Assembly: GCA_018902385.1 (NCBI GenBank)
Contig: JABSSW010000078.1
Location: 1 to 64,000, forward strand
Reading direction: 5' to 3'
Origin: Physcia stellaris
Lineage: Eukaryota; Ascomycota; Lecanoromycetes; Caliciales; Physciaceae
Length of the DNA: 64,000 bases
Of this stretch, positions 19,185 through 64,000 are shown one piece after another. Within the stretch, counting starts at the first letter, position 1; the number at the start of each line of letters is the position of its first letter. The notes below the pieces were generated by a model. The model saw only the letters and a program-made list of their open reading frames with translations. It was not told the origin of the DNA and searched no databases. Made by a program: the position numbers and the translations under genes.

Positions 19185-19581
19185 GGCTATCGACAAGTCA
19201 AGTGCATACCATCACCAATGGAAATTCTTTTCATAAAGCTTGGGGGAGCATAATTATATCTGTTTGTCTTCTAATGCTGTAATTTACAAGTCTAAAAGAT
19301 TAGTAATATCTGATAATGATCATTCAACAAGTGTCCATTGTCATTTCCGTGGTCTCCATTATGCACCTACCTCAAGGAGCAACGTCCTGTTTGCACGTTA
19401 GTATTGCAGATCTATCGCCCAACCACTTGTTCCCAGTACTCTACCTCTCGCTTTCTATCCGTACCCATCCACCTCTCCCAGCATCGCCGCAATACTACTA
19501 ATAGACTTGCGTGAAGACTTGAGAAGGTTCGCGAGAAGTCAAAGTGACTCTAAGAGAGTCAGAGCGACTTAACTGGTCTCG
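19185..19581. other. Intergenic up to the left arm of the 35-bp inverted repeat
   Basis: Holds the 3' region of the Rds1-like gene. Beside the repeat arm there is a small imperfect palindrome (TGACTCTAAGAGAGTCA, about 19545-19562). Otherwise nothing recognisable. Confidence 0.4.
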
Positions 19582-19616
19582 CGCCTAGCAGAATAATTCG
19601 GACACCTCCAACCCTA
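19582..19616 (+). repeat. Left arm of a perfect 35-bp inverted repeat around AT-rich block 1
   Basis: Begins CGCCTAGCAG and ends CTCCAACCCTA. It is identical over all 35 bases to the reverse complement of 30937-30971. Similarity stops at both edges. A CTGGTCT heptamer lies 2 bases outside this arm (19573-19579) and again 4 bases outside the other arm. Confidence 0.9.
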
Positions 19617-21591
19617 TCTGTTTTTCACCACGGCTACAGCATTCTTGACGACGGCCGTGGGCACAAAACCTTTGACTACAGAATTATTGCCCAGCGCAGC
19701 GGCTCCATGGGTTGACTTCTGTTGCAAAATGCCGAAACAAGGTTCTGACTCATCACTTTCTGTCCAATCATGTAGACGACTCAGTACGGGAGTTAGCTTC
19801 TTCAGGCACTAAACTAGCTATGTTCAGCTGTAACTTCTTCGATTGTTGAATTTCAATGTTTTGCAATCGCTTTTTTCGAATAATCAGCTGTTTTAGAACA
19901 GTGAAATGAAATTCGTCATGTTCACGATTTTTCAAAATTGTTATTATTTTTTTTTTCGTTGAGCGTTTTCGATTTCATGTTGTGATGTTGATGAAATTTT
20001 TTGATCAACATTTCAATTTCAAATTTCTGATTTCGATCGTACATTTTTTTTTTTTTCTCTTTTTTCATAATTTGAAAAAATTGTTATTTTTATATTTTTC
20101 ATTTTGTTTTAATCGATTGCATCAAATATCATTCGTTCGAAAAAAATCAATTGTTTATTAATTTGCTTTTTTTTTATTCAAATTTTCGTTGATAGTGTGC
20201 ATCGTCTCAAAAAAATTTTTCTGAAATTACTCGTTTCAGTTGAAATTTCTTTAATTTTACAACTTTATTGAGTTTTCATTCAGACTTTTCTTCTCCGAAT
20301 TCTCTTTTCTGTTTGTTTTAAGATTGAGTTTTTTTATCTGTATATTATTCGATCAAAATCTGACTGTTTAAACGTACGATGTCAACAATGACACGATGTG
20401 ACGAATGTACTGTTCGATTTGTTGCGTTCAATGATATACTTTGCGCTAAACAGATTTATTCGAACATTTTACTAAACGACTTTTTCTGTTTGATTTTTTT
20501 TTCAATGAATGTTCTAATTTTACACGCATTGTCTTCAGTTCACGTTTGTTTCGATTTTTTTCATTTTGATTTTTACGCTTTATTTGCATTTCGACTTCTA
20601 AATATCAAAACGTACGATATCGTGAATCGTGAAGTTTTTTGACGATTTTCATGATTGACGTGCTTGCGATTGTCGAAAATAATTCAAAATGATTTTTTCA
20701 AAAATGTTTTTTAAAATTTTGTTGTCAAGATTACGCGTTTCGTGAAATTTGTTTCTCAGTTTTTATTACATTTTTTTTCACATTGTAATTTTTCATCTTT
20801 TGACAATATGTCTGTTTCGAAGCATGTTGATACGAATACGTTTGCAAAAACTCGCGTTAAACGCAAATCTTTGAGCGATTTGATTGATTTTGTTATTAAT
20901 ATCGTCAATAACGCAATCAACGTTGATTCGCTTTTCACATTTCGAGAAATCAATAGAAAAACGTATGTCAAGAAGTTCAAAGCAGAACAGTTTCAGAAAG
21001 AATCAAATCATTTTCGCAACAAAACAAAGTCGATCGAATCAATCAATAAAATATTTCGTGATCAAGAAATTTCTCGAAAAAAAACTGCACGACGTCGTCA
21101 GAAACAAATAACGCGTCACGAGCGACAAACACAACGACGAACTCAAATCAATAATTCATCATTCATTTTTTTTTCGATTTTTTTCGAATTGCGTCGCTTT
21201 TTTACATTTGTTTTTTTGAATCATTTTTTTTCACGTTTTTCGTTTTTTTCAATCGTTTTTTCAAACGTCGCAAACGAACAAAAAAATCACAATACAAACG
21301 TTGCGAATTGTGTCGTTTCGTTCGAATTTCGTTTCGATTTTTCGACGACGATTTTTTTGCTGTTATTGCGAACACGACGAAAATGTCGAATTACAATGAT
21401 GTTTGAACGAACATCATGAAATTTCTGTTCAAAACATGAACGACAAAATCAGCTGTTTTGCGCACGAGCGTTCGAGAAAAAATGATGTTCGAATAATTGA
21501 TGAAAATAATGATTTGTTCTGAAAAATCTTTCAGCAACGTGTCGACAATAAATTTTTGAAAAAAATCGTCGTTTCGAAAATTGACTGAAAT

Positions 21592-22200
21592 TTGATTCGT
21601 GATTTTCACGCAAATTTGAAAAATATCAAACGTCAAATTTGCGATATTTGCAACGAAAAACGTTTCATCGTCAAATTCAAATTCAAAAAAAAACAAATTC
21701 GATGCGAACGATGTATCAAAAATTTCAAAAAAAACAATGTGAAAACGTTTTTTGTAAAAAATTTTATGAATTCAAACGTTGTATTGAAATTTTTATCGAA
21801 ATTCACGATCGTCGAAAAATTTTTGATTGTTCGAATTCATGTTTTGATAAATTATTCACGCGTCAAAAATATGCAATACAAATATTTCGATCACATTATC
21901 AATTTCATGCAAAATATTTTCAAAATCGTTTTCAAATTGTCGTCGTTGTTTCGAAAATTGCAAATTTTGCATTTGAAATTTTTTTTTGTTGATTTGAAAA
22001 ACAATGTCGTGCAACGCGAATACGATCGAAAATTCAATATTAAACGTAATTATGTCGAAAAATGATTTCGATATTTTATCGTCAATCATTCGAATTACGC
22101 AAATATGATTATTGATATTAATCGATTGAATCAATTGTCGAAAAATGATTTTATTTTGAACGATATCAAATTAATGACGTTAAAATCGCGTGAAAAAAAA
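21592..22200 (+). pseudogene. Helitron cysteine-pair region preceding Rep (DUF6570-like)
   Basis: The frame reads QICDICNEKRF...IRCERCIKNF, two Cys-x2-Cys pairs at about 21640 and 21700. It continues VVLKFLSKFTIVEKFLIVRIHV, QYKYFDHIINFMQNIFKIV and, after an in-frame TGA at 22063, RYFIVNHSNYANMIIDINRL. Fungal Helitrons have here 'P..L..LT.VE..LIARVHV', 'GQQYKY.GHVINF' and 'W..YLI.NHPGY.D'. Differences are mostly L/P to F and W to stop, the expected direction of the mutations. The region probably binds DNA through zinc. Confidence 0.8.
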
Positions 22201-22429
22201 ATTTCGTTTTTTTAAAATGTTGAACACGATACGTTGATCAACGATTTGTGTAATGCGTGTATTGACGAACGTATAAAAAAAATTTTCGAAAACGAATTTT
22301 TCGATTCGAAATTCGACGTCGTTTTTATCGAAAAATTTTGCGTTTTAAATTCGAAAATTATCGAAATCGAATTTCGAACATTATAAAACGCGTTGAAATG
22401 TCAAACGAATAACAAAAAAAAAATCGATT

Positions 22430-23740
22430 TCAATGTCGTCGTTTTTTTTTCGATGTTTACAATGCGTGATATTTTTTTTTTCGAATTCGATTTTTTTTTG
22501 CACATCGAATGCAAAATTTTTTTTATTTTTTTTTCGCGAAAATTGATTGTTTTTATCGAATCGCGTGAAAAACGAATTGAATTCGATGAATGAATCAAAC
22601 ATTTGTTTTTGTACAAAAACGATCGTTTTGTTCGTCATTTTCAATTTCGTTATTGAATTTTCAATATTTTTATGAAATCACGAATCGTCAAAAATGTTGT
22701 GTGAATGACGAAACAATTTTCGAACAAAAAATTTATTTTGAAACAATTCAAAAAAATGACGTCGCGTAAAAACAATCATTTGATCGACAACATCATCAAA
22801 AAAAATGACGTTATAAAAAATATCAAATTTTACTGAAAGAAAATCAAATCGAAACTCGAAACAATGATATTATGCATCGGAATTTTCAGTTTTTTTTTCA
22901 TTTTCAACGTCGTCGATATGCAATGAAACGATTTTTACGATCATGTTTTTGCTGACATAAAAAAACGATATGAAAAAATTACGATCGAATTCGTCAAAGC
23001 AATCATCGCGATGCAGTTTCTGTAACAAAATTTTCACATCGTATCGAAATATTTCACTATTCGTTGAAAAATGTTTTTCAATGACGTTTTGAAGAAGAAA
23101 TTCAAAATCAAAAAACATTGATATCGATATGAATGACAAAGTCGTGACAACGATCACATACATGATTTTTTGTGAATCGATGATGTTTCAAACAACGATA
23201 TAAAACAGAATTTTGTCGATTATTGAAATTCGAAAATCGTCGTTTTGAATTTTGACGTTATTTTTTTTTCAACGACGATTCATTTTAACAATTTTCGTTT
23301 CGAAAATCGTTCGAACATTATACGTCAATTGACGAAATTTTTGAATCGATATCAACGTCACATCAAATGCATTTCGCAATACTGTTTGAAACGAAAAAAA
23401 AACGATGACGTTGACGATTTGATTTGCAAATTTCATTTTTTTCAAAAACATTTCACAGAATTTGCGTTTGAAAACAAGTTCAACGCAAAACATTTTATGT
23501 TTGAATCGATTCGAAACGATTTTTTGTTCGACAAATACATGTTCATTTTCATCGTTTGTTGAAATGTCAACATCGACGTTTTTTTTTGCGATGACATCAT
23601 TTTTGTTGTCGTTTATTTTTTCAAATACGTCGTCAAAGAAAAAAACAATTTCAAAAATTCGTCGATGTCAATCGAACGTTGTTGAACACGATCAAATTCG
23701 ACGTCGAAAACTTTTTGACGAATTACATCACGAAAATTTT
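22430..23740 (+). pseudogene. Helitron Rep (HUH endonuclease) domain remnant
   Basis: In the frame of the upstream part I read FFFIFNVVDMQ*ND (22.89-22.93 kb; the family has FFTxSAADxxW) and KKH*YRYE*QSRDNDHIHDFL*IDD (23.11-23.18 kb; the family has WYRxEYQxRG..HxHG..W). The HUH pair His-Ile-His is intact at 23155-23163. After a +1 shift at a T run, the two-tyrosine segment VVYFFKYVVKK follows (Tyr codons at 23615 and 23627; the family has Y..KY..K). In an active element this domain nicks and joins single strands during rolling-circle transposition. Confidence 0.85.
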
Positions 23741-24499
23741 GAACAAAATCATCGTTGAACGAAATTGATCGACACAGAAAATTTGTCATATTTTTTTCGA
23801 TTTGAATTTTCGAAATTCGTCTAAAACTGTAAAGTGTTTGAATTTTCGTTTTTTTCATAAACAAAAACGCGTCGTTTTTTTTGAATGTTGCGAAAACAAA
23901 AATGAATTCACTGTCACTGACATCAAGTTGAAAAAATACTGTGATCGGAAAAAAAACAAGAAAAACATGATTTTGTTTCAGTTCGTTCGAAATTACAAAT
24001 GAAATGTCCGAATCGAAAATTTCACGTCTCGACGCGAAATTGTTGTCAATGCTTTTTTCAAATACAAAAACGAAAAAAATTCGAACAATTATTGCAAAGC
24101 AAAATTGATGTTGCATCATTTTTTTCGAGACGTCGAAAATCTCAAAATCGTTGACGACGTGACATATGAAATCTGACATGACGTTTATCAAATTTGTCGT
24201 GACAATCATGTTAAATTTCACGATCACGATTCGTTGAGTGAACATCGTTTTTTTCAGAAAAACGATTCGAACATGAAATTTCTGATCAGCAACGAGAAAA
24301 ATTCTATCGAAATCGAGACACATGAAAAATTTCTCGTTTTTCGCAAATTTGATCGCGATGATCGAAACGTCGAAATTGATTTTGATTTGAAACGACGTTT
24401 TATGAATCGTCAACACGATTGATTTCGTAAATTTTACGATATCGATTTTTTTCGAATCGCAAAAAATTTCGAAATTATGTTTCGACACAAGAGTATGTT

Positions 24500-25970
24500 C
24501 GATTTGATGTCTGAAAACTTCGTCGAAACAAAAAATTTCGATCAGTTGAATGTCAAACAACGCGAAATGTTCGATTTGTACGTCAACGTCTATTTTGCGA
24601 ATTGTACAAATCAGTTTTTCATTCATTTGAACGACGTTGTTGACATTGAGAAATCTCGCGTAATCGATATGTTTTCAAGATTCTTGATTTATCACGTCAA
24701 TCAGAAAGATAAGAAATGTCCGAAATTCACGATTTTGCGAAATGTTTTTATCGATGTAATCGTTCACAACATCGACGATTTTACGTTGCATTTTTTTTTT
24801 CAAATTTTTTGTTCGACGAAAAATGAATAATTTAAACAAAACGAAATTAATTCAATTTCAATCGAATTTTGATTTTTGTTGATTTTTAATCGTTGACGAA
24901 AAATCGATATTAAAATGCAAATTTTTTCATTTTGTGAATTTTCGATTACGTCAAATTTTTTGCAAATTCGACGTTTATTTCGACGATTTCAATATTTTTT
25001 TTTGTGACGATTTCGATCAATTGATTTTCGTCGACGATCACGTTTTGTACAACGATAATGATTTTTCGATTAATCGTTTGATTTATTTTGCTTTTCAACG
25101 TATTATCGTTTTGAAAAAAATCATGCGTCAAAAAAAACAAAACGAACGTGTTCGTTTTTTTCGTCGTATTTTGAATCAAATTCGAAATAATTTTATTGAC
25201 AAAATCAATTTTGATTTTTTTGTCAACAAAAATCGTTTTAATTTTTCGCAAAAAAATGAATTTTTTTTCGCGATGTCATCAAATTGTATTTTTTTCGAAA
25301 ACAAATCGTCAATCACAATATAAAACGTTTGATTGAATTGCAAAAATTCGTGTTACGCGTGAACGTCACGAATCATAACGCAAAAATTGCACAAATGAAC
25401 GAAAACGATGTTGACGATTTATTCAATACGTTGTTTATCGTCATTGATGCGAAAATTATGTTGATTCGAAATTTTTGAATCAAAAAAAATTTCGTCAACG
25501 AAATCATGAACACGATACACAATATTTTCTGAAACGACGAAATACAGAGTTTTCATTTTCGTTTATCGATCATGATCATGATCGAATTCGACGATTATGA
25601 AAACAATGAATGCATCGATATTGAAAATCGCAAAATGATTTCAATTGTTTCAATCACGAACATTTTCGAAATCAATCACGCTTTTTGTCATCGAATTCAA
25701 TTTTTTTTGAAATTCGCTTTTGTCATCACGATTCACAAAAATCAGAAATTCACGTTGTTCAAAATCGTGATTTATTTTCAATTCAAAGACGTTCACACGA
25801 CGAACGTTTATGTGACTTTGTTCAGAATTCGAAAAGTTTGCGATTTCGTCATCGAAAAATTTGTTTTTCGTGATGTCTTTTCGAAACTGATTTTCGTCAA
25901 AGTGATAAAGCGATTGAATGATGAATTTCGTCGTCAAAATTGTTTTGATAAGATTATTTCTTTGTTTTTC
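24500..25970 (+). pseudogene. Helitron Pif1-type SF1 helicase domain remnant
   Basis: Read in order: LNVKQREMFDL (Q motif); DVVDIEKSR at 24633-24659 where Walker A has GVAGTGKSR; VIVHNIDDFTLHFFFQI for 'G.AA.NI.G.TLHSLF'; LRQIF and FCDDFDQL (25003-25023) for Walker B 'LCGDFDQLPPVGD'; KIMRQ for the MRQ motif; and ITIHKNQKFTLFKIVI (about 25.73 kb) for 'TIHKSQGLTL.K..ID', then VYVTLFRIRKVCDFVI for 'YVALSRVR'. Gly-to-Asp/Glu and Leu/Pro-to-Phe changes dominate. In a live element the helicase unwinds the donor strand. Confidence 0.9.
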
Positions 25971-26249
25971 AAAAAAAAATCGAATGAAAAAAAACAATTC
26001 ACGACAAATTCGAGTTTCGTGATTGATTCTGAAGTTCACGAATTTTTTTTTTACGTCGATGACGATTCGTTCAATGATTTTTTTTCGCTTTATATTCTTG
26101 CAGATGATGAAATTTCGAATCAGTTTTTTGTAATATCGAATGACAATATTGATGTTTCGTCGTTATTGAATTTGTTGACGTTGATCGATATTGCATTCAT
26201 GTTGTTTTCGAAACGTTTTCGATTGAACATTTCATGCGATTTTTACGAA

Positions 26250-26966
26250 TGAGATTTGTTTTTCGCTCATTTTCATCAGCGAAATGAAATCGTCGAAATC
26301 ATTGATCAATTTTTTTTCAATCGAGTCGTGAATGATGTTGACAATCAAAATTTGCACACAATCGAACGTTTCTGACACGATTTTCAATTTTATGTTGATT
26401 TTAACGCATTGTTTTCGTTTCTGACAATTCATTGATTTCATAGTTTTTCGATTTTCGTCGCAATCAATGTTTTGACGAAATCGACTTTCAACGTACAATT
26501 GTTAAGTTTGAATTTGACGACATACGTGCAAACGATGATTTTTAAACGATTTGAAAATGTTGAACTCATTAATATTTTTTTTATCATTATCATTGTCGTC
26601 ATTTCTGTGTGCATTTCGAATCATTGATTTTTTTTTTTCGTCATTCGTCAAAATACGAATCTTTTAGTCATTTCATGCAATTCTTTTCTCGATATGAAAA
26701 ACTCGTCGTTTCAACGATTTCTAGAAATGTACGTTGAAGTTCTGCAAAAAAAATCGAATTATTTTGAAAATGCAATTTTCGATGATCAGATTCGATCGAT
26801 GATCAGTGTGCGTCAAAACGATGATCACAATTGCGACGTGTATGTCATTGTTAACGTCATCGATTTGTTCGAAAAAAAACAGTCTTTTTTGAATCGTGCT
26901 TTTTTTCGCGAATTACGTTTACAATATGTTCGTGCGACGACGAGACATCATGAAATGAAAATTTAA
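26250..26966 (+). pseudogene. Ulp1/C48-like cysteine protease domain at the C-end of the Helitron frame
   Basis: Follows the helicase in the same frame as 25572-26252, interrupted only by TGA codons that fit TGG. Motifs: IISVCISNH*FFFFVIRQNTN (His codon 26622-26624; C48 has 'NHW.L.VI'), then a segment with SCNSFLDM where C48 has 'YDSL', then SVRQNDDHNCDVYVIVNVIDLF (Gln 26814, Cys 26832; C48 has 'Q.D..NCGVYV'). It ends at 26966. The His/Gln/Cys spacing suits a SUMO-protease-fold peptidase, although the Asp position is not clear. It could instead be a neighbouring element's gene that happens to share the frame. Confidence 0.55.
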
Positions 26967-27549
26967 CGAAAATTTTTGTCGTTGATATTGAATGAAATCG
27001 TTATTTGATTGAGAAATTTGAATCAATTGTTTGACAATCAATGTATCGTGAATGATGCGATTTTCATCGAATTTTTGTATATAGTAAGTTTGTTATTTCA
27101 AGAAAATTTCGTATTTTGATTTTTGTGTTCGTCGTTAGTTTTTCTTTCGTCTATTTCATTTCTTTGAATCTTTTGATGTTAATTCGTACGTCGACAATGA
27201 ATACGTGCTGTGTTTTAAATTATGTTATCTGTTTTGTTGTTTGTGTTTTATTGACGATCATAATGATCGTTCAAAAATGTCACGTTTGACGAAATTTGTC
27301 GATGTCTTTCTTCTTCGCGAGTTTTTCATTGTATTCATTCATATTTTGATGTTTTTTACTAGAATTTTTTTTTATTTTTATTGAATTTTTTTGTGTGTAT
27401 TCGTACGAATATCATATCAATTATTTGTTGATTTCACAGCACAAATCGCTTTTTGTGTGATGATAAAAATGCATTCATATGATTTTGTTCGAAAAAAGAA
27501 TTAATTTTTTTTTTTTCATTTCATTCATTTGATATTGTCTATGTGAAAT

Positions 27550-27807
27550 GATATGTTTTTTTTTTCTAGAAATCGAATTGATTTGTTTTGCTTGATTGAA
27601 TTTAATTATTTTTTTAAAATTTTTATTCGTACGAATGTTTTTTCACATGTGTTTTACGCATGTTTGATTCTAATGTATATTATTTTTGCTTTTGATTTAT
27701 TCACAATGATTTTTTTTAAACAAATGTTGATATACAATACAATGACAATGTGTTGTTGACGAAGTCGAAATTCATTCATTAACGTTGTTTTCAAAATCAT
27801 TCTATTA

Positions 27808-27849
<42 letters not shown>

Positions 27850-28950
27850 CATCACGATGTCACGCAACGCTCGATTTTTGATCACACGTAAATATATTTG
27901 TTTGATTTATTGATCATTATGAAATTTAACGTGAATGTAATGAATAACGAAAAATACGTTTTCGTCGTCAATGTCGTTGCTGTGAGTTTGACTATGCAAA
28001 AACAACAAAAATTTGATTCACGAAAAGACGATTTAGTTTCGAAACGTTTTTTTTCGCGATGATCGTCTCGTTTTCGTCAATTTTTACGACGATCACGCAA
28101 TGCTTTTGTCTTTTTTTGATCGCATTTTTGCGAATATTACGCATTCGCAAAAATTCAAAACGTTTGCGATTCAAGTAAATCATATCGAAAGTTTGTGTTT
28201 CGAATATGTCATTAATCATTTCGTTAAATCGCTGATCGAACGACGTCGCAACGTTGCATTCGCTGCGCTCAAACTGAAAAAAACAAGTCGAAATTTGTTT
28301 TTTTCGTTTGTCGTCAAGTCAAAGATGAGTTTGAAATTTGCGACGAATGTTGATTTAAACACAAAACATCGCAATGTTCGTTGAGTAAATCATATTTTTT
28401 TTGATTTTGAACGACAATTGATTTTTTTAAATTCGATGCGTGTGAAATTCGCGATCGCAAAAATGATGTTTTCGATTTTCGTCAATATCATTGTTTTTTT
28501 TCTGCATCAAAAGACACGAGAATTTATATTAAAAGCGTGAAAACATTTTTAATGTTCACAAATCAGTGTTTTTCGCAGCGATCATTCAACAAAAAACGTC
28601 GATTGACGTTTTTTGTTGAACGCGAACGATCAGAAAAAAGCGACGAAATCGACGAATCAATCGATAATCGTGCTGAAATCGTCGTCGATTTTTCATTATT
28701 TTTGTTTCAAAACGAAAAATCATTTCAATTTGAACAACATGACAATTACGACGATTTCGATTTTGATATCGAAATCGAACGATTCGTTTCTGAGTTTTCG
28801 AATGTTGTTTTTATCACAAAAAAAACAGAAGTTTCAAAGAGTCAATTTTCAAAAAATGATAAAAATCGAGTTTCAACATCACGATCTCGTGTCGTAAAGA
28901 AATCTTTATCATTTTCTTGATTTTATTTTCGAAAAAAAAAAAATCAACGT
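27550..28950 (+). repeat. Dispersed repeat A, copy 1 (decayed, coding capacity uncertain)
   Basis: Aligns in the same orientation with 62.2-63.53 kb. Anchors: CATTAACGT.GTTTTCAAAATCATT just before a T run (here 37 T, 27810-27846), the start-like ATGTCACGCAACGC, GCGACGAATGTTGATTTAAACACAAAACATCG, ATTCGATGCGTGTGAAATTC followed by GCAAAAATGATGTTTTCGATT, and an acidic coding-like segment (FSLFLFQNE...DNYDDFDF...EIERF, about 28.69-28.80 kb). The two copies share that acidic protein-like segment in frame, which suggests a once-coding element. No known domain is recognised, and I see no terminal repeats. Confidence 0.7.
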
Positions 28951-29259
28951 ACGTATGAAACGAAAAAGCGACTTCATCTGATGCTGTAAATAGACGTGTG
29001 AAACGAGAAAAAATGAAATTTGACGTTTGAACGTTTTTTCAATGATCATGTATAAAGAAATTTTGTTATGAAAAACGATTTCATTGCAGACATCGTTCGT
29101 TATACACGATATTGTGAAAAGATTGTCGTTATTCGCATCAAAAAATGTCTTTATTGTAATTATTTTTCATTTTACAATTTCGTCTATTTCTTTTTTTTTA
29201 CTTTCGAATTTTCTTATCTCATTCGTACGAAGATGTTTCTCAATAAACGTGATTGATTT

Positions 29260-30776
29260 GTAATATGTTTTATGATGCGTTAAAAATTTGATGTTGTCGA
29301 ACAAATGTTTTTCGTATGTTGTAATTGAATATTATCGATGTTGTATCGTCGTTGAAATGTTTTGATGATGCTCGACTTCTTTGTTGAAAAAATGATGTGA
29401 ATTTTTTTATATTGTTTCGATATTCGCAATCTAAATTCGTTCGAAAAAAGCAATCTATATGTATTTAAAACATGATGTTGAATTTGCTAATTATTGAACA
29501 ATATTTGTGATAAAATTGATGTTTTCATATCATATGTCGTTTTCATTTCATAAATTGATTCATGATCATCATGTCGTGAATTTGATATCGCGAAATCGAT
29601 AAAATTTAATTTCGCACGTTCGTTTAATTTTTCATTCGTCGTTTTCGCAATTTTTTTTCATTTATTTGTTGTTTTTCAATTTCTGCTTCGCATCATTCAC
29701 ATTACATGATTGCATGTTCTGTCACATCGTGACGATAAGCTGTAATACGAAATTCTGAATTTCTTAAACGTATTTCTGACACGATTCAGCGCGTTCTTGA
29801 ATTTTTATCACGTCGTAAATTTCACATACGTTCAACTGTGATCATGCGACGATGCTTTCAATGACGACGAGATAAATGACTTTCATATCAATACATTCAG
29901 TTGACTTTTTCTGATCATTAGCAATTTTACGATCTGTTGCGTCTTTTTTGCAATTTATCACAAAAAGTCTGTCGAAACATCTGTTCGATTTTTTTCTTCT
30001 TTTTTTTTTCTTTTTCATTTTTTTCATCATCATTCATTTCGTCAAATACGACTAGATCGTTCTTATTTTCTCGAGCGATATTTTTATTATCTTTTTTTTC
30101 TCGATTCACACATCATTTTAATTCGATTTTGTCTTGTCATTTCTGTTTGCAATCGTCGTTGTTTTGTCAACATTTCAATCGTTTTCTTTTTTTGTTTCGT
30201 ATTTCGCGCGATTTTTCATCATGATCACAACAACAAAAAAAATGATGTTTATTGTTTGTTACATTTCACATATTAGCGATGATTTCAAATTATCAATTCA
30301 ACTATCTGGAAATTTTTTCGTCGCTCAGTTGCATTTTATACACACAAACTGATTGAGATCAGTTTTTACTGATTGATTACATGAAAATTCAATTTATTGT
30401 TGTCATCATCGCGATTCGAATTCGAAATCTCAAATAATTTTGAATGAAAAATGCTTATTTACAGTTCTAATCGTTAAATCATTCAGTCAGATTCGTTTCA
30501 TTAAAATATTGATTTCTTATTTGCATATATATACATTATGCGACGTTCAAATTTTTTTTCATCTTTGTCAGTCAAAATATCATTTCAATCTGTTTTTCAC
30601 TCTATTGTTTTATCAATTTTCAATTTTCACTTTTTTTACATTCAATAATCTGTTCTTTATAACTATTTCATATTTGTTATTCTGATCCGTCATTCTTTCT
30701 GTCTGAAATCACCGTGATTGTTTCCATTTTCGTTCAATTTCATCATGATCATCCACTCATCCGGTCGCGTCAATAT
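29260..30776 (+). repeat. Dispersed repeat B, copy 1
   Basis: Matches the reverse complement of about 60.40-62.0 kb. The most similar stretch is 30.44-30.55 kb (TGAATGAAAAATGCT...ATTATGCGACG), differing mostly by C/T or G/A, and the match continues through TCGATTCACACATCATTTTAA and TTTCGCGCGATTTTTCATCA. B ends at 30776-30780, directly against the telomere-like tract. The open frame at 29937-30224 is recognisable in both copies but is Phe/Ser-rich low complexity, so I do not call it a gene. Confidence 0.8.
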
Positions 30777-30780
30777 GCTG

Positions 30781-30795
30781 TAACCCTAACCCTAG
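30781..30795 (+). repeat. Interstitial telomere-like repeat, (CCCTAA)2
   Basis: TAACCCTAACCCTAG, two full units of the TTAGGG-type fungal telomere repeat plus a partial one, exactly at the junction between repeat B and normal-composition DNA. It is too short to be a chromosome end. The 35-bp inverted repeat also ends in AACCCTA on its inner side. Confidence 0.8.
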
Positions 30796-30936
30796 AACAC
30801 CATGCGCTGGGCATACGGAGACAGGCTTGCCTGCCTCAGGATACCTTGTACAATTTTTGCAACTTAACAATATTTCCGTAGAAATCGTAACGTCATTGTG
30901 TATCGTTGTTAAGTTGATCAAGCTTGCACATATGCG

Positions 30937-30971
30937 TAGGGTTGGAGGTGTCCGAATTATTCTGCTAGGCG
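30937..30971 (-). repeat. Right arm of the 35-bp inverted repeat
   Basis: Exact reverse complement of 19582-19616 (35 of 35), beginning TAGGGTTGGAGG and ending CTGCTAGGCG on the plus strand. The arms are 11.39 kb apart outer edge to outer edge. It lies about 155 bases upstream of the next host gene's ATG. Confidence 0.9.
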
Positions 30972-31127
30972 GGAGCTGGTCTTGGGATACTGTGACGTCA
31001 GATCCTGATGCCCGGGCCGATGATTTTCCGAGACGCGCTCGGCGCGTTCATGGATATCAACGCGTCAAGTTTACCATTTGTGTGTGCCCGCACGTTAGCA
31101 TATTTGCTTCTCCCCAAGGCATCAACC

Positions 31128-32066
31128 ATGACTTCCCACAAACGCTCGCGCTCTACGGCGGAGTCTGGTGCTGAGTCTCCCAAAGTCGCCAAAAAGCCGA
31201 ATACCACGAAACCTGCAGAAGACCTGGCGCAGGCGAATGCTCGAATCCACGAGCTGGAGGCCCAAGTTAAGGAGCTACAGGACTACATCTACAGCCAGAA
31301 CGTCGCCCTTGGTAAATCTATATGCAAAACTAGTAAAAGGTCAATACTAACCTCAATTGCTATCAGATGCCCCAGCCACGATCCGGAGACACTTAGATAA
31401 TCGCACAGATGCAGCTGAGAGGCTTGCAGAACAAGTTCGCGCCGCGATCCAGGCCTCCTACGATGAATTGATCGATCAAACCTATAATTCTAGGAAGACC
31501 GGCGTTACCTCTGATGATCTCAGTAAAGCCATGATGTCCTATTTCGAAAATATCGAAAGAGTGTGGGCATTGCCAGGTGGATTGAATTACGCGTTTGATC
31601 TCGTGTTGAAGCTTGGGCAATGTTCGTTTGGCGATCTTGATTCAGATGGAGGAGGCTACGGTGACCGGCCGTCTGATGAGGATGCTGATGATCTACTTTA
31701 CAAGATGATTCAAGAGCGCAGGAGAATCGACTCTGAATATAATCCGATCGAAACACTACAAGATTTGAAGGATACGGCGAAGAACTTGAGTGCTTATGGC
31801 GTTGATACCTATTTCCCTCGGTCTATTGCTCTGCTTACAAAACGGTAATTTTTTCCTGCGAGCCTTGAATGAGCTTTTGCTAAACTGCTGCTAGGGACAG
31901 TCATGTTGGGGAGGAAGCGTCCAAGGAGACAAACAACATCATTGACCTCATAAAGACCCAAGATTGCATTGTAGAGTCTCGAAGGCTCCCGCCTTTGCCC
32001 ATCGACCACGGGTCCCATTGGCGTCGAAGGAAGATTGCAGAATCTCGACGGCTGTATAACAATTGA
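31128..32066 (+). CDS. Coiled-coil protein of unknown family
   Basis: Three exons: 31128-31311, 31367-31844 and 31895-32066, with introns of 55 and 50 nt that both carry CTAAC/CTAAAC branch sites, encoding 277 residues. The N-terminus is basic (MTSHKRSRST, then KVAKKP), compatible with a nuclear signal. Residues about 33-58 (AEDLAQANARIHELEAQVKELQDY) form a coiled coil. The middle is helical and acidic (DLDSDGGGYGDRPSDEDADDLL). Exon 3 ends in an Arg-rich tail (GSHWRRRKIAESRRLYNN). I recognise no domain. It is the first gene right of the AT block, its promoter overlaps the right inverted-repeat arm, and an upstream in-frame ATG at 31008 exists. Gene model good; function unknown. Confidence 0.65.
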
Positions 32067-54107: not shown

Positions 54108-54559
54108 CGTGTTTTCCGTCTTGGAGCACGCAGGCGGGTAGAGTTGTCTTGCTGGGCTTCAGTGAGTGCGAGACGAGCCTCGCGAAGTAGTCGCCAGCTA
54201 GACAGTAATCTAGGTCTTAGGGAAGCGGATGGATGGAAGGATCGGGGGGTGTGCTTGACCCTGACAGGACTTCACGGTTGAAGTTCGGGGCTGTTACTGC
54301 ATGCACCAGAAGCGTGCGCGACAGGATCAGGAAAGAGCTGAAGGGTGTGGGAGACAGCTGCGGCGTCATCTTGACGCTTAACGTTTTGTGGAAACTTTAG
54401 CAGGAATTGATCTCGAAGGACCACGTACGAGGCTGACTCGGCTGAGAAGTGAGAATTGGACCTTCTTTTCCCGCTATTGACAGTCTTCGCTTATACGTGA
54501 TTCATGATGCAAGCCAAGCGATCGTCGTTAATCTCAAGCCGACATCGCGTGTGCGCACT
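54108..54559. other. Promoter of the hydrolase and edge of AT-rich block 2
   Basis: Composition is normal to about 54.54 kb and then turns abruptly into the CG-retaining AT-rich type. No terminal repeat matching the 35-bp arms of block 1 is seen here. Confidence 0.5.
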
Positions 54560-54767
54560 CGATTTCGTCTGATGATTCACGCTCGAACGAGTTTGATTTC
54601 GCGAGCGATTTTTTTCGCTCGCTGTTCGTGAATTGACATTCGAAACGATGATACGTAAAGTATTTTGAAAAAACAAAATGAAAAATCAATCGTTCATCGA
54701 GACGTCGCGATCGCTGTTTTGAACAAAAAACGAAAACGAACAAATTTCGTTCACACAAATTGAAATT

Positions 54768-54896
54768 GATTTTCACGTTTTCGTTTCAAATGCTCGTTCG
54801 CGATGATTTTCAAATTTCGTTTATCGTTCACGAGTTGACACGATTTTCACGTTTTGTTTTCGTTTCAAAACGTTTTTTCGCGATAATTTTTGAAAA
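54768..54896. repeat. Two-copy tandem repeat, about 74-bp period
   Basis: GATTTTCACGTTTTCGTTTC followed by TTCGCGATGATTTT (from 54768) recurs from 54842 as GATTTTCACGTTTTGTTTTC followed by TTCGCGATAATTTT. An imperfect duplication at the entry of the AT block. Confidence 0.6.
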
Positions 54897-57800
54897 TGAA
54901 TGAAACGATTCGATGATTTTTTCAATTCATGCGACGTAAATCAAATGATAACATTTAATTTCGAAAATGAATCGATAAATGAATGACGAAATCAATCGCG
55001 ATGTGTGTTGTTGTGTTGTTGTGAATTTTTTTTTGCGTTCGAGTTTAAAAACGTCGAAAATTTTTAAACGAATTTTTTTTTTTTGTAATTTTTTGTTTCA
55101 AATTTCGCATCGTTTAACAAATTTTTGTATATAACGTATTAAACAACGATCAACGCATTTTTCAATTTTATTTTTTTGAAATTGTCAAAAAGCGTTTTGA
55201 ATGTGATTTTCGCGATTGATAAACGTTTTCGCGAAAAATTCGAAAATTGATCGAAAATTGATTTTTGACAATTTTTGTATGTTTTGAAAAATTAAAAATA
55301 TGCGCAATCAATTTTCAAATATTCATATAATATGAAATTTCAAACGTGATTTTGAAAAAAAAATTTTGAATGTCAACGTTTTTGCATTGTGATCATGATA
55401 ATGTCGACGTCGTTCAACAAATTTTTATATTCATTATAATTTTGTTGATTGTGTACGAAATCATATTTGAATCGTTGATGCGATCAAAGTTTCGAAATTT
55501 CAATAAATTTGAAAAAAAAATTAAATGTGTTTAAAATATTCGATGATTACACGATTTTTCAAATTTAATTCACATGATGTTGTTCAATTCAAATTTCAAA
55601 AATAAATCATGTGAAACAATATTCATCGTCACGTCGATTTGCTGTAAAAAACTCGAAATTTTCAATTAATTTTGTCAACAGTGTACAATCAAACACGTGA
55701 ATCGATTATATCAACAAAATTTTGAATTTTCATTAGATTTTGTGTTGATGAAATTAATGATTTCGAAACGATTTTTTTTTGATCACAATTTATGAATGTC
55801 GAGAAATCAAATTGAAATGCGAATTTTACATGCACATGCACACGATTTGAAATCAATTTCTCATTGTTATTTAAATATTACGTTTGATAATATCACATTT
55901 TCGAAATCAAAATATTTCAGTTGTTTTTTTAGCTTTTTGTATTTATGATTTAATTTTTTTTTTTTGAACAAAACGACACGTTTTTTTTGCGTGAAATAAT
56001 CGAAAACGATGACAAAATTTTCATCAATGTATTTGTTTTTAACACGATCGATATTTTTGACATTGATTTTTTTTTGTACGTTGCGATTTTTTTTGTGATG
56101 TCGATTTGATTCATAAATTTTGTTTTTCGTGTATTGAAATCAAAATTCTGATGATGAATTCAGAAATTTTCGTTAAAATTATATCGATTTCGTAATTGCA
56201 CGATTTGTTGCATTTGATCAATCAATAATGAACAAAACAAACGTTCATATGATTTATTTTTCAAATACGATATTGTTTTTTCATAATTTTTCAGATTTGC
56301 GATTGTTGTTTTTTTTCAAACAATTTGTTTCAATATTTCAAAGAAACGATCACGTTTTTGACGAAAATCACGATTGCGACGAGATTATTTCATTCGTCGA
56401 ACAATCGATTGAAATTTTCCGAATACGTTTTGACGAAAAATGTCGATACATCGAATTGAACATACTGAATCGTTTTATGAAACATCGTGAACAATAACGA
56501 TTTTTTTGCGTTCGCATTTTTTTTGTTTTTTTTTCGAAAAATGTTTGTATTGTTTTGTTTCAATCGATTTCGTTTGAATGATGTGATTTGTGAATATATC
56601 ATTTGTTCATACATGTCGTTTCGCGCGTTTGTAACAAGTTTTCGTACAATTTGTTTCAAAACGTTTACGATCGAAACATTTGCATGAATGTGATAATGAT
56701 AAATAAAATGAATATCGATGTTCGATTTCGAAATCGATGAAATTATGATTTTTCGCATCAATGAAATTGTCGAAATTATTTGATTTGTGAACAACGAAAA
56801 AATATCGAAAATCGAATTCGCAAATAACGAAAAATTCGAACAATGCACATCGCGATTATCGATGACAAATTCAAATTCAATATCAACGAAAACGTCGAAT
56901 TGTTGCAATCTGTATGTAAATAAATATTGATCAATCAAAAAAAAATAAATATGTATCGAATCAAATCGCGAAACGTTCGTTCATTTTTTTTTTTCATAAA
57001 ACTGTAAAGTATGTGAATTCAATTTTTCATTTTGATGATTTGATTTGAATTGCGCAAATTTCGTTCAGATTTGCAATCAATTTTTTTTTTTTTTTCAATA
57101 AAATCGCAAATTTTGAAATTCGCAATGTCGTTTGTTTGCGAACGTTTTTTCTGAACATGATGAATACGATTGACGAATTCGAATATCGATATGAACGTAA
57201 AAAAATTTGATGAAATCAAATGAACGATATGTAAATAACAAAATGCAAAATCAACGACACGAAACGAAAATTTTCGCGTTACAAACATTCAATGTTTTTT
57301 TTTGACACATCATTCAACTTTTTGTGACATTTATATTTAAAATTCGTATAATCGTCTGTTTTGTTTTTGACGTCGTTTTTATTATCGTACGAATAATGTT
57401 ACAAAACAACAAAATGTTCAATCAACGTTTCATCGACGAACAAATTGTTGAAATTGATTAAATCAAAAATATTTCGTTTTTTTTTCAAACGTGTTGCGTT
57501 GAACTCATTCGTTCGTGAAACATTGTTTACATACATATTTTGACAAATTTTTTTCAAAATTCAAACAACAAATCATTATTTTTGATCGCAATTTTTTGAT
57601 TTTCAGAAATTTCGTCATTTTTCAATACAATACAAATTTCATTTGTACGTTTATTTTGTTCGCGTCAAATGCATTTCGTCAAAAATCAACGCGTCGTCGT
57701 TCGATTTTGTGTTTTTGAAAATTACAAATTGATTTACGACAAAAAACGATTGTTCAATTCAATTCATCGTTTTTCAATCAAAAATTCAATATGAAATCGA

Positions 57801-58699
57801 TTACTTTCGTTCAATTGCGAATCATCATGAAAAAAATTACAAAAATTCGATCATTGCACAAAAACACAATTCGACTTGATCGAATCAATCGAAAAAATGA
57901 AAATCGAAATAATCGAAAAAAACGAGAACGAAAAGAAAAAAAATGAAAAAAAAAATGAAAAACAAAACAACGAATCAAAGCATCAACTTTCAACGTTCAA
58001 AAAAAAAACACATATGTTTAGAAAAATGTTACAAAAAACTTCTGAAAAAACTCACGCTTTTTTTACATTGAAAAATTACAAAAAGTTTGTGATTGTCGTT
58101 CATTAAATCAACGTTACAATTAAAAATCATATAGTCAATGAAAGAAATTCGAAACGTTCGTCAAAAACAATTTTTTTTCGAATTATCTGAAATGTTTCAA
58201 ACAATTCGACGAAAAAACGTTCGAGTTGATCATGATTTAAATATACGTTTTTTGTGATAATTCGAACATGATTTTTATCGATACAAACAACGTTGAAAAA
58301 AAAAATTTCCGATTTGATTTCACAAGATCGAACATACAATCACGCGTTGAAAATGCGTTTCGCGTGCAATTGACATTATGAATATCGACAAAAAAAAATA
58401 TCGATACGTTTCGTCACGAAAAAAATGATTTTTGAAATGACAATTCGTCGTTGTTTCTAAACGTGTTCATTTACATGAAAAGTTTACAAAAAAAAAATAA
58501 AATATCGTCGTTGAATTGTTAAAATATTTTTTTTGATAATGTATATTATTTACAAATTGCAATATCGAATCGACAAAATCGTTATCAACGCGCGCGTTAT
58601 AAACGAAAAAAATTTACAAAAAATGTGAAAATACAATCGACAACATCGCTCGATCGATAATTTATAACGATTCGATACAAATCATAATGAAAATCGATT

Positions 58700-59450
58700 T
58701 TGAATCGAAATCAAACAACGAATTATGTTGCAATTGATTTACGTCATGATTTTTTTGTGTTTATTACGAATTGACGAAATTTTGCGCATTGAATTTCATT
58801 ATATTGAAATCGTAAACGAGAATTTCAATCATTTTTGCATCAAATTGATGTTGAAATTTCGAAAAACTCATCAAAATGAAAATAAACAAAACATTGATAA
58901 CGAGTTCGTCAACAATACAAAATTAACAATGTTTTAAACATCAAATTTTTTTATTTTTATGACAATAAGAACGAATTTTGATTGAATGTGTTTCATTTAC
59001 TCGCAAAATGAATTGTATTGTTCGAGTTCGAATTTAGCGACAAAGTTTTTCGACGATTTGATGTTATGAATCGCGTTGTCACAATCAATGTTTTTTTTAT
59101 GATATTGAATTTGATATTTCAAATTGAATGAATTTCGTTAACGTTTTTATTACAAATATTTCAAATTTTTCTGAGTAATTTTCGCAATAATCTTGTTGAT
59201 ATCGATGTGAATTCGAATTTTTTCGAAACGCACTCTTTTCGCAAAAACGATGTTCAATATTTTTTGATTTACAAACGTTGAAATATTCGCAAATTATGTG
59301 ACTAAAACGACTGAAATATGAAATATGACAATGTGACAATTGTCAAATACATTATCAATTGAAATGATAAATCTATCAAAATGCGAAAAAAATTTTTAAT
59401 TTTGACGATTAAAAAAATACACGTTGCAACGCATGCGACAAAAAATGCGA
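58700..59450 (+). mobile_element. Crypton-like tyrosine recombinase remnant
   Basis: Around 58740-58920 one frame reads LCLLRIDEILRIEFHYIEIV...LMLKFRKTHQN, the box-I Arg region of fungal Crypton recombinases ('LLR.DEVL.I...DIE', 'L.FRKTHQ'); the Arg codon is at 58767. At 59198-59370 another frame reads FFETHSFRKNDVQYFLIYKR*NIRKLCD*ND*NMKYDNVTIVKYIIN*ND. The family has YGTHSFRRGG, then W..R.IC.WGGWS, then TI.KYL..W. His-x-x-Arg (59231-59242) and the Tyr nucleophile (59348) survive, while every Trp is TGA or TAA and GG is ND. The two motif blocks are in different frames, so it is dead. Cryptons insert by site-specific recombination without a terminal repeat, so the element ends are unknown. Confidence 0.75.
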
Positions 59451-60399
59451 TTGCGCATAATTGATGACAATATCGAGCAAAAACAAATTTCGAAATGTCA
59501 AACAATAATGTTTTGAATAACGAAATTTATTTTTTGATCGCGACTTGTCGACGAATGCAAATTTGATCAACGATAATTCGTTTCATTGACATATGTATAT
59601 ATTTTCTAAAACATCAATTTTTCGTTAATCGTTCGATGTTTTTTCATGATCGTTTTGACTCGAAAATTTTCAAAATAAATCGTACGTTATTGCATATTAA
59701 ATATCGCAATCGAATTGAAACAATAAATATTGTGAAAAATGTTGTTTTGTCGTTGATATTGTCAATCGAAAAATGTTTAATCAATAATGAAATTCAAACG
59801 ATTCATTGATTGAAATCGTTTTCGTGTAATATACGTTGTTGAAAATGTATCTCAATTAATTGTCGAAATTTCTATTATTTTTTCAACATATATTCGTACG
59901 ATAATTTCAATTTATTTGTAAAAAGTTGAAACGATCAATCGAGTTTAAAATGAAAATTTTTTAACGTTCAAAAAGATTGAAATTAAAAACGTGTTTACGA
60001 AAATTGTCGATTGAATCATTTTTTACTTTTCGCATCATTTGAGCATCGTTTTTCATTATGAATCACATTATTGCATAGCAAACAACTCGTTCAGTGATTA
60101 TGATTTGAACAACATAAAATCATTGCTTTAATGCAATACACAGCAGCAAAATCTGTCTTGTTCAAAATTTTAAATCAAAATTTTGACATCTGTTTGATAT
60201 ATGCATTTAAAACAAAAACGAAAATCGTTGTTTTATTGATTTCTATTTTAACTTTTATTATTTTTTTTTCACAATGACATGAAGTATGTCAATGCAATGT
60301 TTAATGAATATTTTCTAATTTGCTAATATATATTGATGCAAAACGAATCTGTTTCTGAATGCTCAACGTTATGTGTTTTAAAATTATAATCATTTTCGC

Positions 60400-62000
60400 G
60401 AGCGCATGATCGATTCATCAATGCAAAATTGAACGAAAAGAACAATTATCACGATGATCGAAAAGAAACAAAATCAAAAATTGAACGTGACGAACACAAA
60501 ACGATTATAAATAACTGATTATTGAATGTAAATGATGCGAAAATTGAAATATTTTAGAACAAAACGTGAAAAACTGACTGAAACAAAACGTGAAAAATTG
60601 ACTGTAAATATATCTTGATTGATGAAAATGTGAAAATATTTGATAATCGTCGCATAATGTTTATATATGTAAATAAAAAATCAATATTTTAATGAAGCGA
60701 ATTTGACTGAATGATTTAACGATTAAAATTGTAAATAGCATTTTTCATTCAGAAAATCGCGAATTCGAATCGTATGATGAACAACGTATTGAACAATCGA
60801 ATGAATTATTTCATGATTATAAACACAAAACGCAAATTTTGACGCGAATGAAAATTTTCAAAATAATCGAATTGATAATTTGAAATCACTGTTAACATGT
60901 GAAATATAACAAACAACAAACATAATTTTTTTTGTTGTTGTTGTGATCATGATGAAAAATCGCGCGAAATACGAAACAAAAAAAAAACGATTGAAATGTT
61001 GACAAAACAACGACGATTGCAAACAAAAATGACAAAACAAAATCGAATCAAAATGATGTGTGAATCGAGAAAAAAAAAATGATAAAAACATCGTTCGAGA
61101 AAATAAAAACGATTTAATCGTACTTGACGAAATGAATGATGATGAAAAAAATGAAAAAAAAAAAAATCGAACAAATGTTTCGACAAATTTCTTGTGATGA
61201 ATTGCAAAAAAAACGCAACAAATCGTAAAATTGTTAATGATTAGAAAAAAAAAATTGCAAAAAACGAAAAAAAAGCGAATCGAACAAATGTTTCGACAAA
61301 TTTCTTGATTTGAATTGTAAAAAAAAAAAAAACGCAACAAATCATAAAATTGTTAATAACTAAAAGAAATCAACTTCATGTATTGATATGAAAAATGATT
61401 TATTTCGTCGTCATCGAAAACATGATTGCACGATCACAATTGAACGTGTGTGAAATTTACGACGTGATAAAAATTCAAAAACGCGTTGAATCGTGTCAAA
61501 AATACGTTTTTGAAATTCAAAATTTCGAATTACAATTCATCGTCATGATGAAAAAAACATTGCAACAATGTGATGTAATGATTACAAATTAAAAAAAAAA
61601 TAAATAAAAACGAAAAAGATTGCGAAAACGAATAATAATTTAAACGAGTTTGCGAAATCAAATTTTGTCGATTTCGCAATATCAATATCACGAAATCATG
61701 ATCATGAATTTATATGAAATGAAAACATCAAAACAATTTCATCACGATTAATGCACAATCGATATGACATATAACATCTATTTTTGAAAAATTTATATTA
61801 ATGTTTTCGCACGAATTGAAAAAGTTGAACATCGAAATTTAAAAACAAAATTACATTAAATTAACATGAATAGAAATCAGACATAACAAAATCATTTTAA
61901 CATCATTGTTTTTATGAATACAACATGCAAAAAACATCGATTTGACAACGATAAATATATTTTTTTTCATAAATTGTTGTAATGATTACACGTTGTCAAT
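60400..62000 (-). repeat. Dispersed repeat B, copy 2 (inverted relative to copy 1)
   Basis: Reverse complement of 29.26-30.78 kb. The best block is 60.65-60.76 kb against 30.44-30.55 kb. The whole low-complexity Phe/Ser frame of copy 1 is found again on the minus strand at 60858-61340. Copy 2 lacks the telomere-like tract at its outer end, and its local tandem duplications make it longer. Confidence 0.8.
61165..61365. repeat. Local tandem duplication inside repeat B copy 2
   Basis: AATCGAACAAATGTTTCGAC (from about 61165) and the following GCAACAAATC.TAAAATTGTTAAT recur 113 bases later (from about 61278). Copy 1 of B has a single unit. A second small duplication (AAAACGTGAAAAA.TGACTG, twice) lies at 60563-60605. 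Confidence 0.7.
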
Positions 62001-62199
62001 TTTTTGAATTCGAAACGATGTTTTTTCAACAATACTATTTTCATGTGCTATTGTTCTTTTTGTAATTTATAATGTAAATTGTGTTTTGACTTTACATTAT
62101 CGTGATTTTTAAAAATAAATGTTTTCGATCAAGAAAAAACAATGAAAATGTGAACATTTTTTCGATATTTAGATTATTTTTTAATATATTATATTCGTA

Positions 62200-63530
62200 C
62201 GTTGACGAGAAATGATAATTAAAATTAAATAATCGTTGATTTTCTTGCTTGATATTATGCAATTACGATGATATTGTTCATTTCATTGACAACGATATTT
62301 TTGATAAATTGTTGTTGTTTTAACATGTGAATATTTTCGCGTCAACACATATTCATCATTAACGTCGTTTGTAAAATCATTTTTTTTACATGAATTTCAA
62401 TTTTTTTTTTTTTTGTTGTTTAAATATCACGATCATCATCATCATGTTTCGTAACGCGAATCAGTTGATCATTTGTAAATGTATTATTGAATCGAAAATG
62501 TGTATGATTTCTGATATATGTTCAAACGTATTCGATGAAATTGTTATCAACGTCAATATTTTTGTCGTAAATGAAAATGCGAAAAAATGCGCACACGTTG
62601 ATTGATGTATGCGAAATTTCGTCAACGTTTATCAGAAAACGAATTTTTTCAATTTATTGAAATTTACGACGATTATACAGTTTTTTTGACGAGCGTCAAT
62701 CGTTTCGTTTCGTTTCAAATCATTCATTCGAAACAATTGAAAACTTTGATTATTCAAATAAATTTCGAATTTTAATATTCATAACATTGTTGACGCAATT
62801 TCAAATCATCGATCGAAATGTTCGTTCGTTTTGTATTCATTGTGTCGTCACGAACAATCGTGTTTTTCGCGTTTGTCGTCAAATCAAAACGCAATTTGAA
62901 ACATGCGACGAATATTAATGAAAACACAAAACGTCGAAATGTTCGCTAAATATGTTTTTTTTTTTTTTCGTTTCATTCGAAACGAATGAAACGATTGTTA
63001 ATTTATAATGTAAATTCGATGCGCGTAAAGTTTACAATCGCAAAAATGATGTTTTCGATTTTTTTCAAAATTAAAAATTTTTTTGTGCATGACAAAGACA
63101 CGCGAATTCGTATCAATGTTGTGAAAACAACATTGTCGAATTTCGACGCGTGTTTTTCGCAACGACAATCAAATCGTTAAAAATTGCTTATCAATCAATT
63201 TACGACAAATCGCGAACGATTACAAAAAATCGATTTCAATGTCGACAAAAATGAATCATTATTTTTGTTTCAAAATGAAAACGAATTCATGAATATGAAC
63301 ACAAAAATTCATTTTGAACACGACGACAATTTCGACGATTTCGAGTTTAACGATTTCGAAATCGAACGATTCGATTTTATCGAATTTCAAATCGTTGTTT
63401 TCGCATCAATTGAAAAAACAAAAATTTCGAATTTTCGCTTTACAAAAGCATTTACAATTTGAATTTCAAAATCGCGTCGTTTTCGCGTCGCAAAAAGAAT
63501 TGTAAATGTATTTTTTAAAAAAATTTGAAA
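62200..63530 (+). repeat. Dispersed repeat A, copy 2
   Basis: Direct-orientation counterpart of 27.55-28.95 kb. Shared anchors are CATTAACGTCGTTTGTAAAATC before a T-rich run, ATGTTTCGTAACGC (start-like), GCGACGAATATTAATGAAAACACAAAACGTCG, TTCGATGCGCGTAAAGTTTAC with GCAAAAATGATGTTTTCGATT, and the acidic segment HFEHDDNFDDFEF..FEIERF (63.3-63.4 kb). It lies beside the inverted B copy, so the A/B order and relative orientation differ from block 1. Confidence 0.7.
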
Positions 63531-64000
63531 AAAATTCATTTTTTTGATTTATAAAAGAAAATATCAGACGATGTTGAATGAAAACGAAAAAAAAATATTG
63601 AAAATTGTGTTGACGAAAAAAATCAAACAAAAAAAAATGTACGAAACGTTGACGAAAATATCGTTTTCGAACATTCAAATGAGAAATGTCGAATCAAACG
63701 ACGAAAACGAAAAATAATGAAATGAAATTGTGATTTGAAATGAAATTGAACACAATTGAATTTTTGTTTCGAAAATAATCATGTTGTGTGTCGATTTCAT
63801 TGCATTTTTCGTTATATACGAAATTGCAAAAAAGTTTTTTTGCATTGTTGTTTGATTATGAATTTTCTTGAATTTTTTTGAAACAATCATGCTTTTTTCG
63901 CGATTGTAAAACATCATTTTGTAATTCATATTAAATTTTTTCAACAATCAAACGATGCGAATGAAACGCGAAATTTGAAAAAAATAAAATCGAACGTGTT

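Follow-up and report, generated by a model that had tools for sequence, protein, structure and literature searches.

A short inverted-repeat element of Physcia stellaris split by an 11-kb Helitron, and decay of the Helitron at cytosines preceding C or T

Introduction

What kind of event places two perfect copies of a 35-bp sequence in inverted orientation around 11 kb of AT-rich DNA? The question is raised by a locus of Physcia stellaris (Ascomycota; Lecanoromycetes; Caliciales; Physciaceae) within a stretch of 64,000 nucleotides (positions 1 to 64,000 of contig JABSSW010000078.1, assembly GCA_018902385.1), referred to below as the window. A sequence-only reading of the window took the two arms for the ends of a large terminal-inverted-repeat element or for two ends used in one insertion, and named two copies of an unrelated short repeat as the alternative. 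Here we report that the arms are the terminal repeats of one element, similar to a miniature inverted-repeat transposable element (MITE), that is split by an 11,162-bp insertion; that the insertion is a Helitron with Helitron2-type ends; and that the Helitron carries a decay like that of repeat-induced point mutation (RIP), in which C is changed to T where the next base is C or T (CpY context) and which is missed by the usual TpA/ApT index. We propose a nested order of events, i.e., MITE-like element, Helitron insertion, and C-to-T decay of the RIP kind, to which we assign a probability of roughly 0.93.

Results

Positions 19582-19616 and 30937-30971 are, as had been claimed, reverse complements of each other without a mismatch (35/35), and the match can be extended to arms of 39 nt with 38/39 identities (97%), located at 19578-19616 (plus strand) and 30937-30975 (minus strand). 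This pair stands at the top of the 106 inverted pairs listed for 19300-31300. By our own estimate a 35-base match is expected by chance about 1e-12 times in 64 kb, in agreement with the earlier judgement that it is too long for chance. The genome (43,974,083 bases in 147 contigs, with the window as C78:1-64000) was searched for 27 bases of the arm with up to three mismatches. Seven matches were found, against none for the reversed pattern used as control: the two arms of the window, two on C13 that together span 226 bp in this search, and single ones at C31:365714, C21:184046 and C31:181411. The last of these is an orphan MITE arm with no inverted partner in the surrounding 3 kb, possibly the end of a larger relative. 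Many unpaired copies across the genome, without association with AT-rich blocks, had been named as the outcome that would speak against the earlier reading; the arm is rare and accompanies short elements rather than AT-rich blocks.

On C13 (G000:C13:532271-532506) the same arms are the ends of an uninterrupted element of 236 bp. The window holds this element in two parts: a left half of 110 bp (19578-19687, plus strand), which agrees with the C13 copy on that side at 109/110 positions, a transversion being the sole difference, and a right half of 126 bp (30850-30975, plus strand), identical to the right part at 117/126 positions with differences of mixed types, among which CpY transitions are not the majority. 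Joined together, the halves give 110 + 126 = 236 bp, the length of the C13 copy, and match it at 226/236 positions without a gap. That no similarity extends past the arms is true of the window, since the sequences internal to the two arms are different portions, left and right, of a single element.

With the C13 copy as query, at least five copies of the element were found in the genome, i.e., those on C13 (236 bp), C21 (222 bp) and C38 (225 bp), a degenerate one on C31, and the one in the window. Four of the five are flanked by 5-bp target duplications: CTGGT in the window, CTTGA on C13, AGGGT on C21 and CCGAC on C38. The window duplication, made by the MITE-like element, lies at 19573-19577 and, flanking the right arm, at 30976-30980; of the longer CTGGTCT that had been pointed out as a weak hint of a target duplication, CTGGT on both flanks is the duplication, while on the left the trailing CT already forms the first two bases of the extended arm. 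The C13 copy is short and non-coding and ends in terminal inverted repeats (39-nt arms), the traits by which MITEs are recognized. The element resembles MITEs in its 236-bp length, 39-bp terminal inverted repeats, 5-bp target duplications and the lack of any open reading frame (ORF) seen to cover it, and is unlike them in its low copy number, with five copies found. Neither a parent transposon family of the element nor, in a literature search, a MITE with 5-bp duplications was found.

The block between the halves is AT-rich as described, with a GC content of 0.25-0.32 per 1-kb step over 20001-31000; for the inserted DNA the value is 0.295, against 0.48 on either side. The arms are not the ends of this block, however. 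The breakpoints fall at 19687/19688 and 30849/30850, at distances of 71 and 87 bp inward from the arms, and the insertion occupies 19688-30849 (11,162 bp, plus strand, with a one-base T ambiguity at the ends). The notion of a large terminal-inverted-repeat element therefore survives in part: the arms are transposon ends, but those of the block are others, at 19688 and 30849. An empty site with breakpoints other than the arms, which had been named as evidence against that notion, is provided by the uninterrupted 236-bp copy on C13, a paralogous copy in the same genome and not an allele of another strain. The left edge is a terminus of a repeat family, since 10 of 14 other matches to 19688-20400 begin exactly at 19688, and none of the places of these matches is among the seven arm matches; the 3' end of the insertion recurs on C2 and C37 (three matches in total). 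A right boundary at 30845/30846, given by BLAST, was rejected because BLAST had aligned the final Helitron bases to the MITE-like element, and reading of the flanks gives 30849/30850.

The insertion begins with TGCCC and ends with CCTTG(T). The sequence TGCCCAGCGCA at its start (19688-19698, plus strand) and TGCGCTGGGCA (30803-30813, plus strand), 36 bp before its end, pair at 11/11 positions and form the asymmetric terminal inverted repeat that marks the Helitron2 variant. From the reading of flanks and ends, a 3' subterminal hairpin, GAGACAGGC-TT-GCCTGCCTC, lies at 30818-30837 (plus strand); it is clear, whereas a fold at the 5' end is weak and comes without a shuffle control. Genome-wide, the first 15 bases of the 5' end are matched 12 times, exactly in 10 cases and with one mismatch in two, and T is present at -1 and -4 in the flanks of all 10 exact ends. 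Because C98 and C20 share a flank, these are nine independent sites, six of which read TNAT and the rest TATT, TAGT and TTTT. Directly after the 3' end, T is found in 3/3 cases. The empty site on C13 reads TTAT^A, and in the window element the Helitron was inserted at this point without duplication, the two halves making up exactly 236 bp; rolling-circle elements insert without target duplication.

A canonical Helitron1 (5'-TC, 3'-CTRR, A^T target) was rejected on account of the ends, although an A^T reading of the target is possible, given the T ambiguity. A long terminal repeat retrotransposon, considered for the TG with which the block starts, was rejected on account of the asymmetric inverted repeat ends, the Rep and helicase content, and the absence of a target duplication. 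Just 5' of the 3' inverted repeat, at 30781-30794, lies TAACCCTAACCCTA, a telomere-like double repeat that is kept in the related copy on C2 and has one change in that on C37.

The copy on C2 (G000:C2:1300795-1312220) is 11,426 bp long and GC-normal (GC 0.509), and its ORFs match PF14214, DUF6570, PIF1, Pif1_2B and Peptidase_C48. The combination that characterizes Helitrons, Rep (HUH/Y2) with a Pif1-like helicase, is present, with PF14214 in both the window and the C2 copy and PIF1 in the C2 ORFs. In the window the Rep domain (Helitron_like_N, PF14214) is found at 22600-23163 (plus strand; E 7.0e-10, over the cut-off), decayed by eight stops; in the C2 copy it is stop-free (C2:1304017-1304595, E 1.3e-35), and YLSKYVAK, picked out by eye in a C2 frame, is likely the two-tyrosine motif. 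PF14214 has 19 matches in the genome, 16 of them over the cut-off, and none in 14 control genomes, a weak control in that those named in the same kind of search are bacteria and archaea. Three more decayed regions of the window, all on the plus strand, run parallel to C2 ORFs: the N-terminal part of a Pif1-like helicase at 24423-24830 (ORF L077:5191-5988, which matches PIF1, E 1.2e-13), its C-terminal part at 25533-26252 (ORF L077:5681-6823), and an Ulp1-like (Peptidase_C48) region at 26628-26966, parallel to the end of ORF L077:6920-7756 with its weak Peptidase_C48 match (E 5.6e-05). None of these three pieces of the window finds a Pfam family by itself. Among solved structures, one C2 ORF matches Pif1 helicases and also Helraiser, a Helitron transposase (7lcc, E 1.6e-09). 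Even in the C2 copy the frame is not continuous but falls into several ORFs, through introns or mutations.

A further decayed copy, G000:C37:110390-132276, has a core about 94% identical to the window copy and extends over 22 kb through added insertions. The Helitron 3' region (30200-30845) gave 48 matches including the window, in all shades of decay; 30200-30663 belongs to a far more abundant repeat, and the exact 3' end is kept at three places only.

In a global alignment of the insertion with the C2 copy, 8,386 of the 11,063 aligned columns are identical. The 2,677 differences comprise 2,416 that are C>T (1353) or G>A (1063) in the direction from C2 to the window, and 261 of other kinds. 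When sorted by the context of the C in the C2 copy, both strands taken together, C-to-T changes affect 1236/1333 CpC (92.7%) and 1014/1374 CpT (73.8%), with CpA (98/1494, 6.6%) and CpG (68/1449, 4.7%) spared; the base 5' of the C has little effect (0.90-0.94 for CpC and 0.69-0.76 for CpT). Seven CC/GG dinucleotides are left in 19888-30700. The locus thus displays C-to-T change on both strands of repeated DNA, as in RIP, and lacks the CpA preference of classical RIP. Heavy decay runs from 19837 to 30750, where about 70-87% of CpY sites are changed, and outside these limits the ends are little or not mutated: 0/22 CpY sites are changed in the first 100 bp and 3/19 in the next 50, against 2014/2325 (87%) in the middle (20687-30200), 2/15 at 30751-30800 and 0/16 in the last 49 bp. 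The MITE halves lack the decay, which bears out the remark that the arms, unlike the interior, are not mutated; the decay ends short of the Helitron edges, which leaves the MITE arms beyond its limits and accounts for their fresh look.

The alignment-based contexts refer to one repeat family. For a wider view, 543 distinct 500-bp tiles were taken, 44 of which, of intermediate GC, were left out. CC+GG is below 0.3 x (CA+TG) in 233 of the 236 tiles of GC <0.34 (52 loci) versus 0 of the 263 of GC >0.44, and TpA/ApT exceeds 0.89 in 0/236 AT-rich tiles versus 47/263 GC-normal ones; the tiles do not stand for independent families, because many of the loci either belong to a single Helitron family or lie next to its members. 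The window contains a second AT-rich block at about 54500-64000 (GC 0.24-0.28), with two CC/GG dinucleotides in 55001-64000; inside it, 60505-60971 (minus strand) is 73% identical to the Helitron 3' region.

Three C5-methyltransferase (PF00145) loci were found in the genome, at C6:791557, C5:499307 and C3:340323. From their length and motifs, those on C5 and C6 look RID/Masc1-like and that on C3 DIM-2-like. Genes of these two types are suggestive of a filamentous ascomycete.

Discussion

In the order of events that we propose, a non-autonomous element of 236 bp, bounded by terminal inverted repeats of 39 bp, would have inserted at CTGGT, duplicating 5 bp. An 11.16-kb Helitron with Helitron2-type ends would then have entered this element between TTAT and A without target duplication, moving the arms 11.3 kb apart. 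Lastly, repeat-directed C-to-T mutation of the RIP kind, at C before C or T, would have ruined the Helitron and made the insert AT-rich while sparing its outermost 100-150 bp and both MITE halves. The data show directly that the element is split, where its junctions lie, what kind of insertion it holds and in which context the C-to-T changes fall. Some observations weigh against this proposal: the right MITE half has nine differences to the C13 copy and the left half one; the degenerate C31 copy has no visible target duplication; four ORF pieces of the window, taken alone, match no Pfam family; and 74/2677 changes go T>C or A>G, C2 being a relative and not the ancestor, so that some directions may be wrong.

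For the mutation step, a RIP-like process fits best, given both strands affected, near saturation, spared ends, and a spared neighbouring element that is short and rare; a length of at least 400 bp is stated for RIP in the available part of one source (PMC3017866). RIP in Neurospora crassa and Trichoderma reesei is alike in producing C-to-T changes on both strands of repeats, nearly saturated and with the ends spared. The RIP machinery probably works here with a switched preference, CpC ahead of CpT and near-complete, CpA and CpG nearly untouched, and the AT-rich compartment would therefore contain hardly any CC/GG and would escape the standard TpA/ApT index. An altered RID-class enzyme is the first candidate for such a switch, as two RID-like genes seem to be present, and we infer that the process may be premeiotic RIP with its CpY context set by a RID-class methyltransferase.

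In place of premeiotic RIP, a DIM-2-like enzyme could have methylated the DNA, with slow deamination as a later step, or a cytosine deaminase could have been at work; we consider this rather unlikely. The genome has a DIM-2-like gene, DIM-2 is described as methylating all CpN with a preference for CpT (PMC13297926, a review available in part), and the CpY context departs from the RIP order of Neurospora, CpA > CpT > CpG > CpC (PMC5496416, available part). However, CpC is 93% mutated while differences of other kinds number 261/2677, which looks like a fast episode. Moreover, both strands and most CpY sites are affected, the element ends are spared, and so is CpG, the usual victim of methyl-cytosine decay.

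As to the geometry, a single 11-kb transposon moved as a unit, with the 35-bp arms as its terminal inverted repeats and CTGGT as its duplication, would account for the perfect arms and for CTGGT on both flanks, but it is very improbable: on C13 the same arms enclose an element of 236 bp, similar arms are found around elements of 222 bp (C21) and 225 bp (C38), and the block ends 19688/30849 recur in copies without such arms around them. Still less credible are two separate short repeats that flank the block in inverted orientation by chance, for although the arm occurs elsewhere in the genome (seven matches), the window parts are complementary halves of exactly one 236-bp element with one target duplication across the pair. 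Both alternatives put forward from the sequence, the large terminal-inverted-repeat element and the two unrelated repeats, were rejected because the C13 copy is uninterrupted and the window halves fit together exactly, and this exact fit directly contradicts the second.

The insertion within the split element can be compared with the FoHeli Helitrons of Fusarium oxysporum (Helitron2 type), as described in the available part of PMC5148889. In these, too, the inverted repeat is asymmetric, its 3' copy standing about 20-40 bp short of the end, and target duplication is absent; FoHeli3-5 start with TGCCT, end with CTCCTGT and measure 9-11 kb (here TGCCC, ACCTTGT and 11.2 kb), and FoHeli1/2 have TNAT before and A after the point of insertion (here TTAT^A), with the one-base T ambiguity that is also seen here. 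Unlike the insertion, FoHeli3-5 have an inverted repeat of 13-16 bp and no 3' hairpin (here 11 bp and a 3' hairpin), and FoHeli1 shows RIP in F. solani at CpA where the insertion has its RIP-like decay at CpY. By word search the FoHeli paper (PMC5148889) is without the words C48, Ulp1, peptidase and protease, whereas a Peptidase_C48 match is found here.

As far as the available part of PMC5496416 goes, CpC comes last in RIP of N. crassa, in the order given above, and of T. reesei (CpA ~ CpG, then CpT > CpC); here it comes first. Signatures at CpA, CpT and CpG are reported in the available part of PMC4352252, with CpT targeted in Botrytis, Sclerotinia, Magnaporthe and others as here, but together with CpA, and CpT changes are dominant or high in the available parts of PMC7882544, PMC2621366 and PMC10998396 (in the last with CpA). 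The present signature is unlike these CpT types in that CpC leads and CpA is spared; the term CpC is absent from PMC4352252, PMC7882544 and PMC10998396 by word search. CpC is mentioned for Monilinia, as CpC-to-TpT double mutations beside classical CpA (PMC8959702, in part), and for Rhizoctonia solani, where CpC single-nucleotide polymorphisms are listed as closest spaced and the authors stress CpG (PMC4014442, in part). The available parts of PMC5555474, PMC13297926, PMC4522978 and PMC3017866 describe no CpC-led, CpA-sparing decay; the main text of PMC7493409 contains neither CpC nor CpT, the single term match in PMC10246852 is a gene name in a reference, and cpc in PMC5602860 is a strain number. 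The CpY context was not found in the open-access papers searched, from which its absence from print cannot be claimed.

Conclusions

The geometry of the locus is ordinary nested transposition. Its inverted repeat serves as a relative clock, running from the MITE-like element to the Helitron and then to mutation, and the comparison with C13 supplies a clean example of an empty Helitron site in a fungus. Of greater weight than the geometry is the mutation spectrum, and for specialists the CpY context is the notable part. To our knowledge, what determines the dinucleotide preference of RIP is an open question, and this genome, in which a near-pure CpY signature occurs together with three methyltransferase genes as candidates and with the same element in GC-normal form, is a natural comparison for it. 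Surveys that rely on a TpA-based index would score such a genome as RIP-free.

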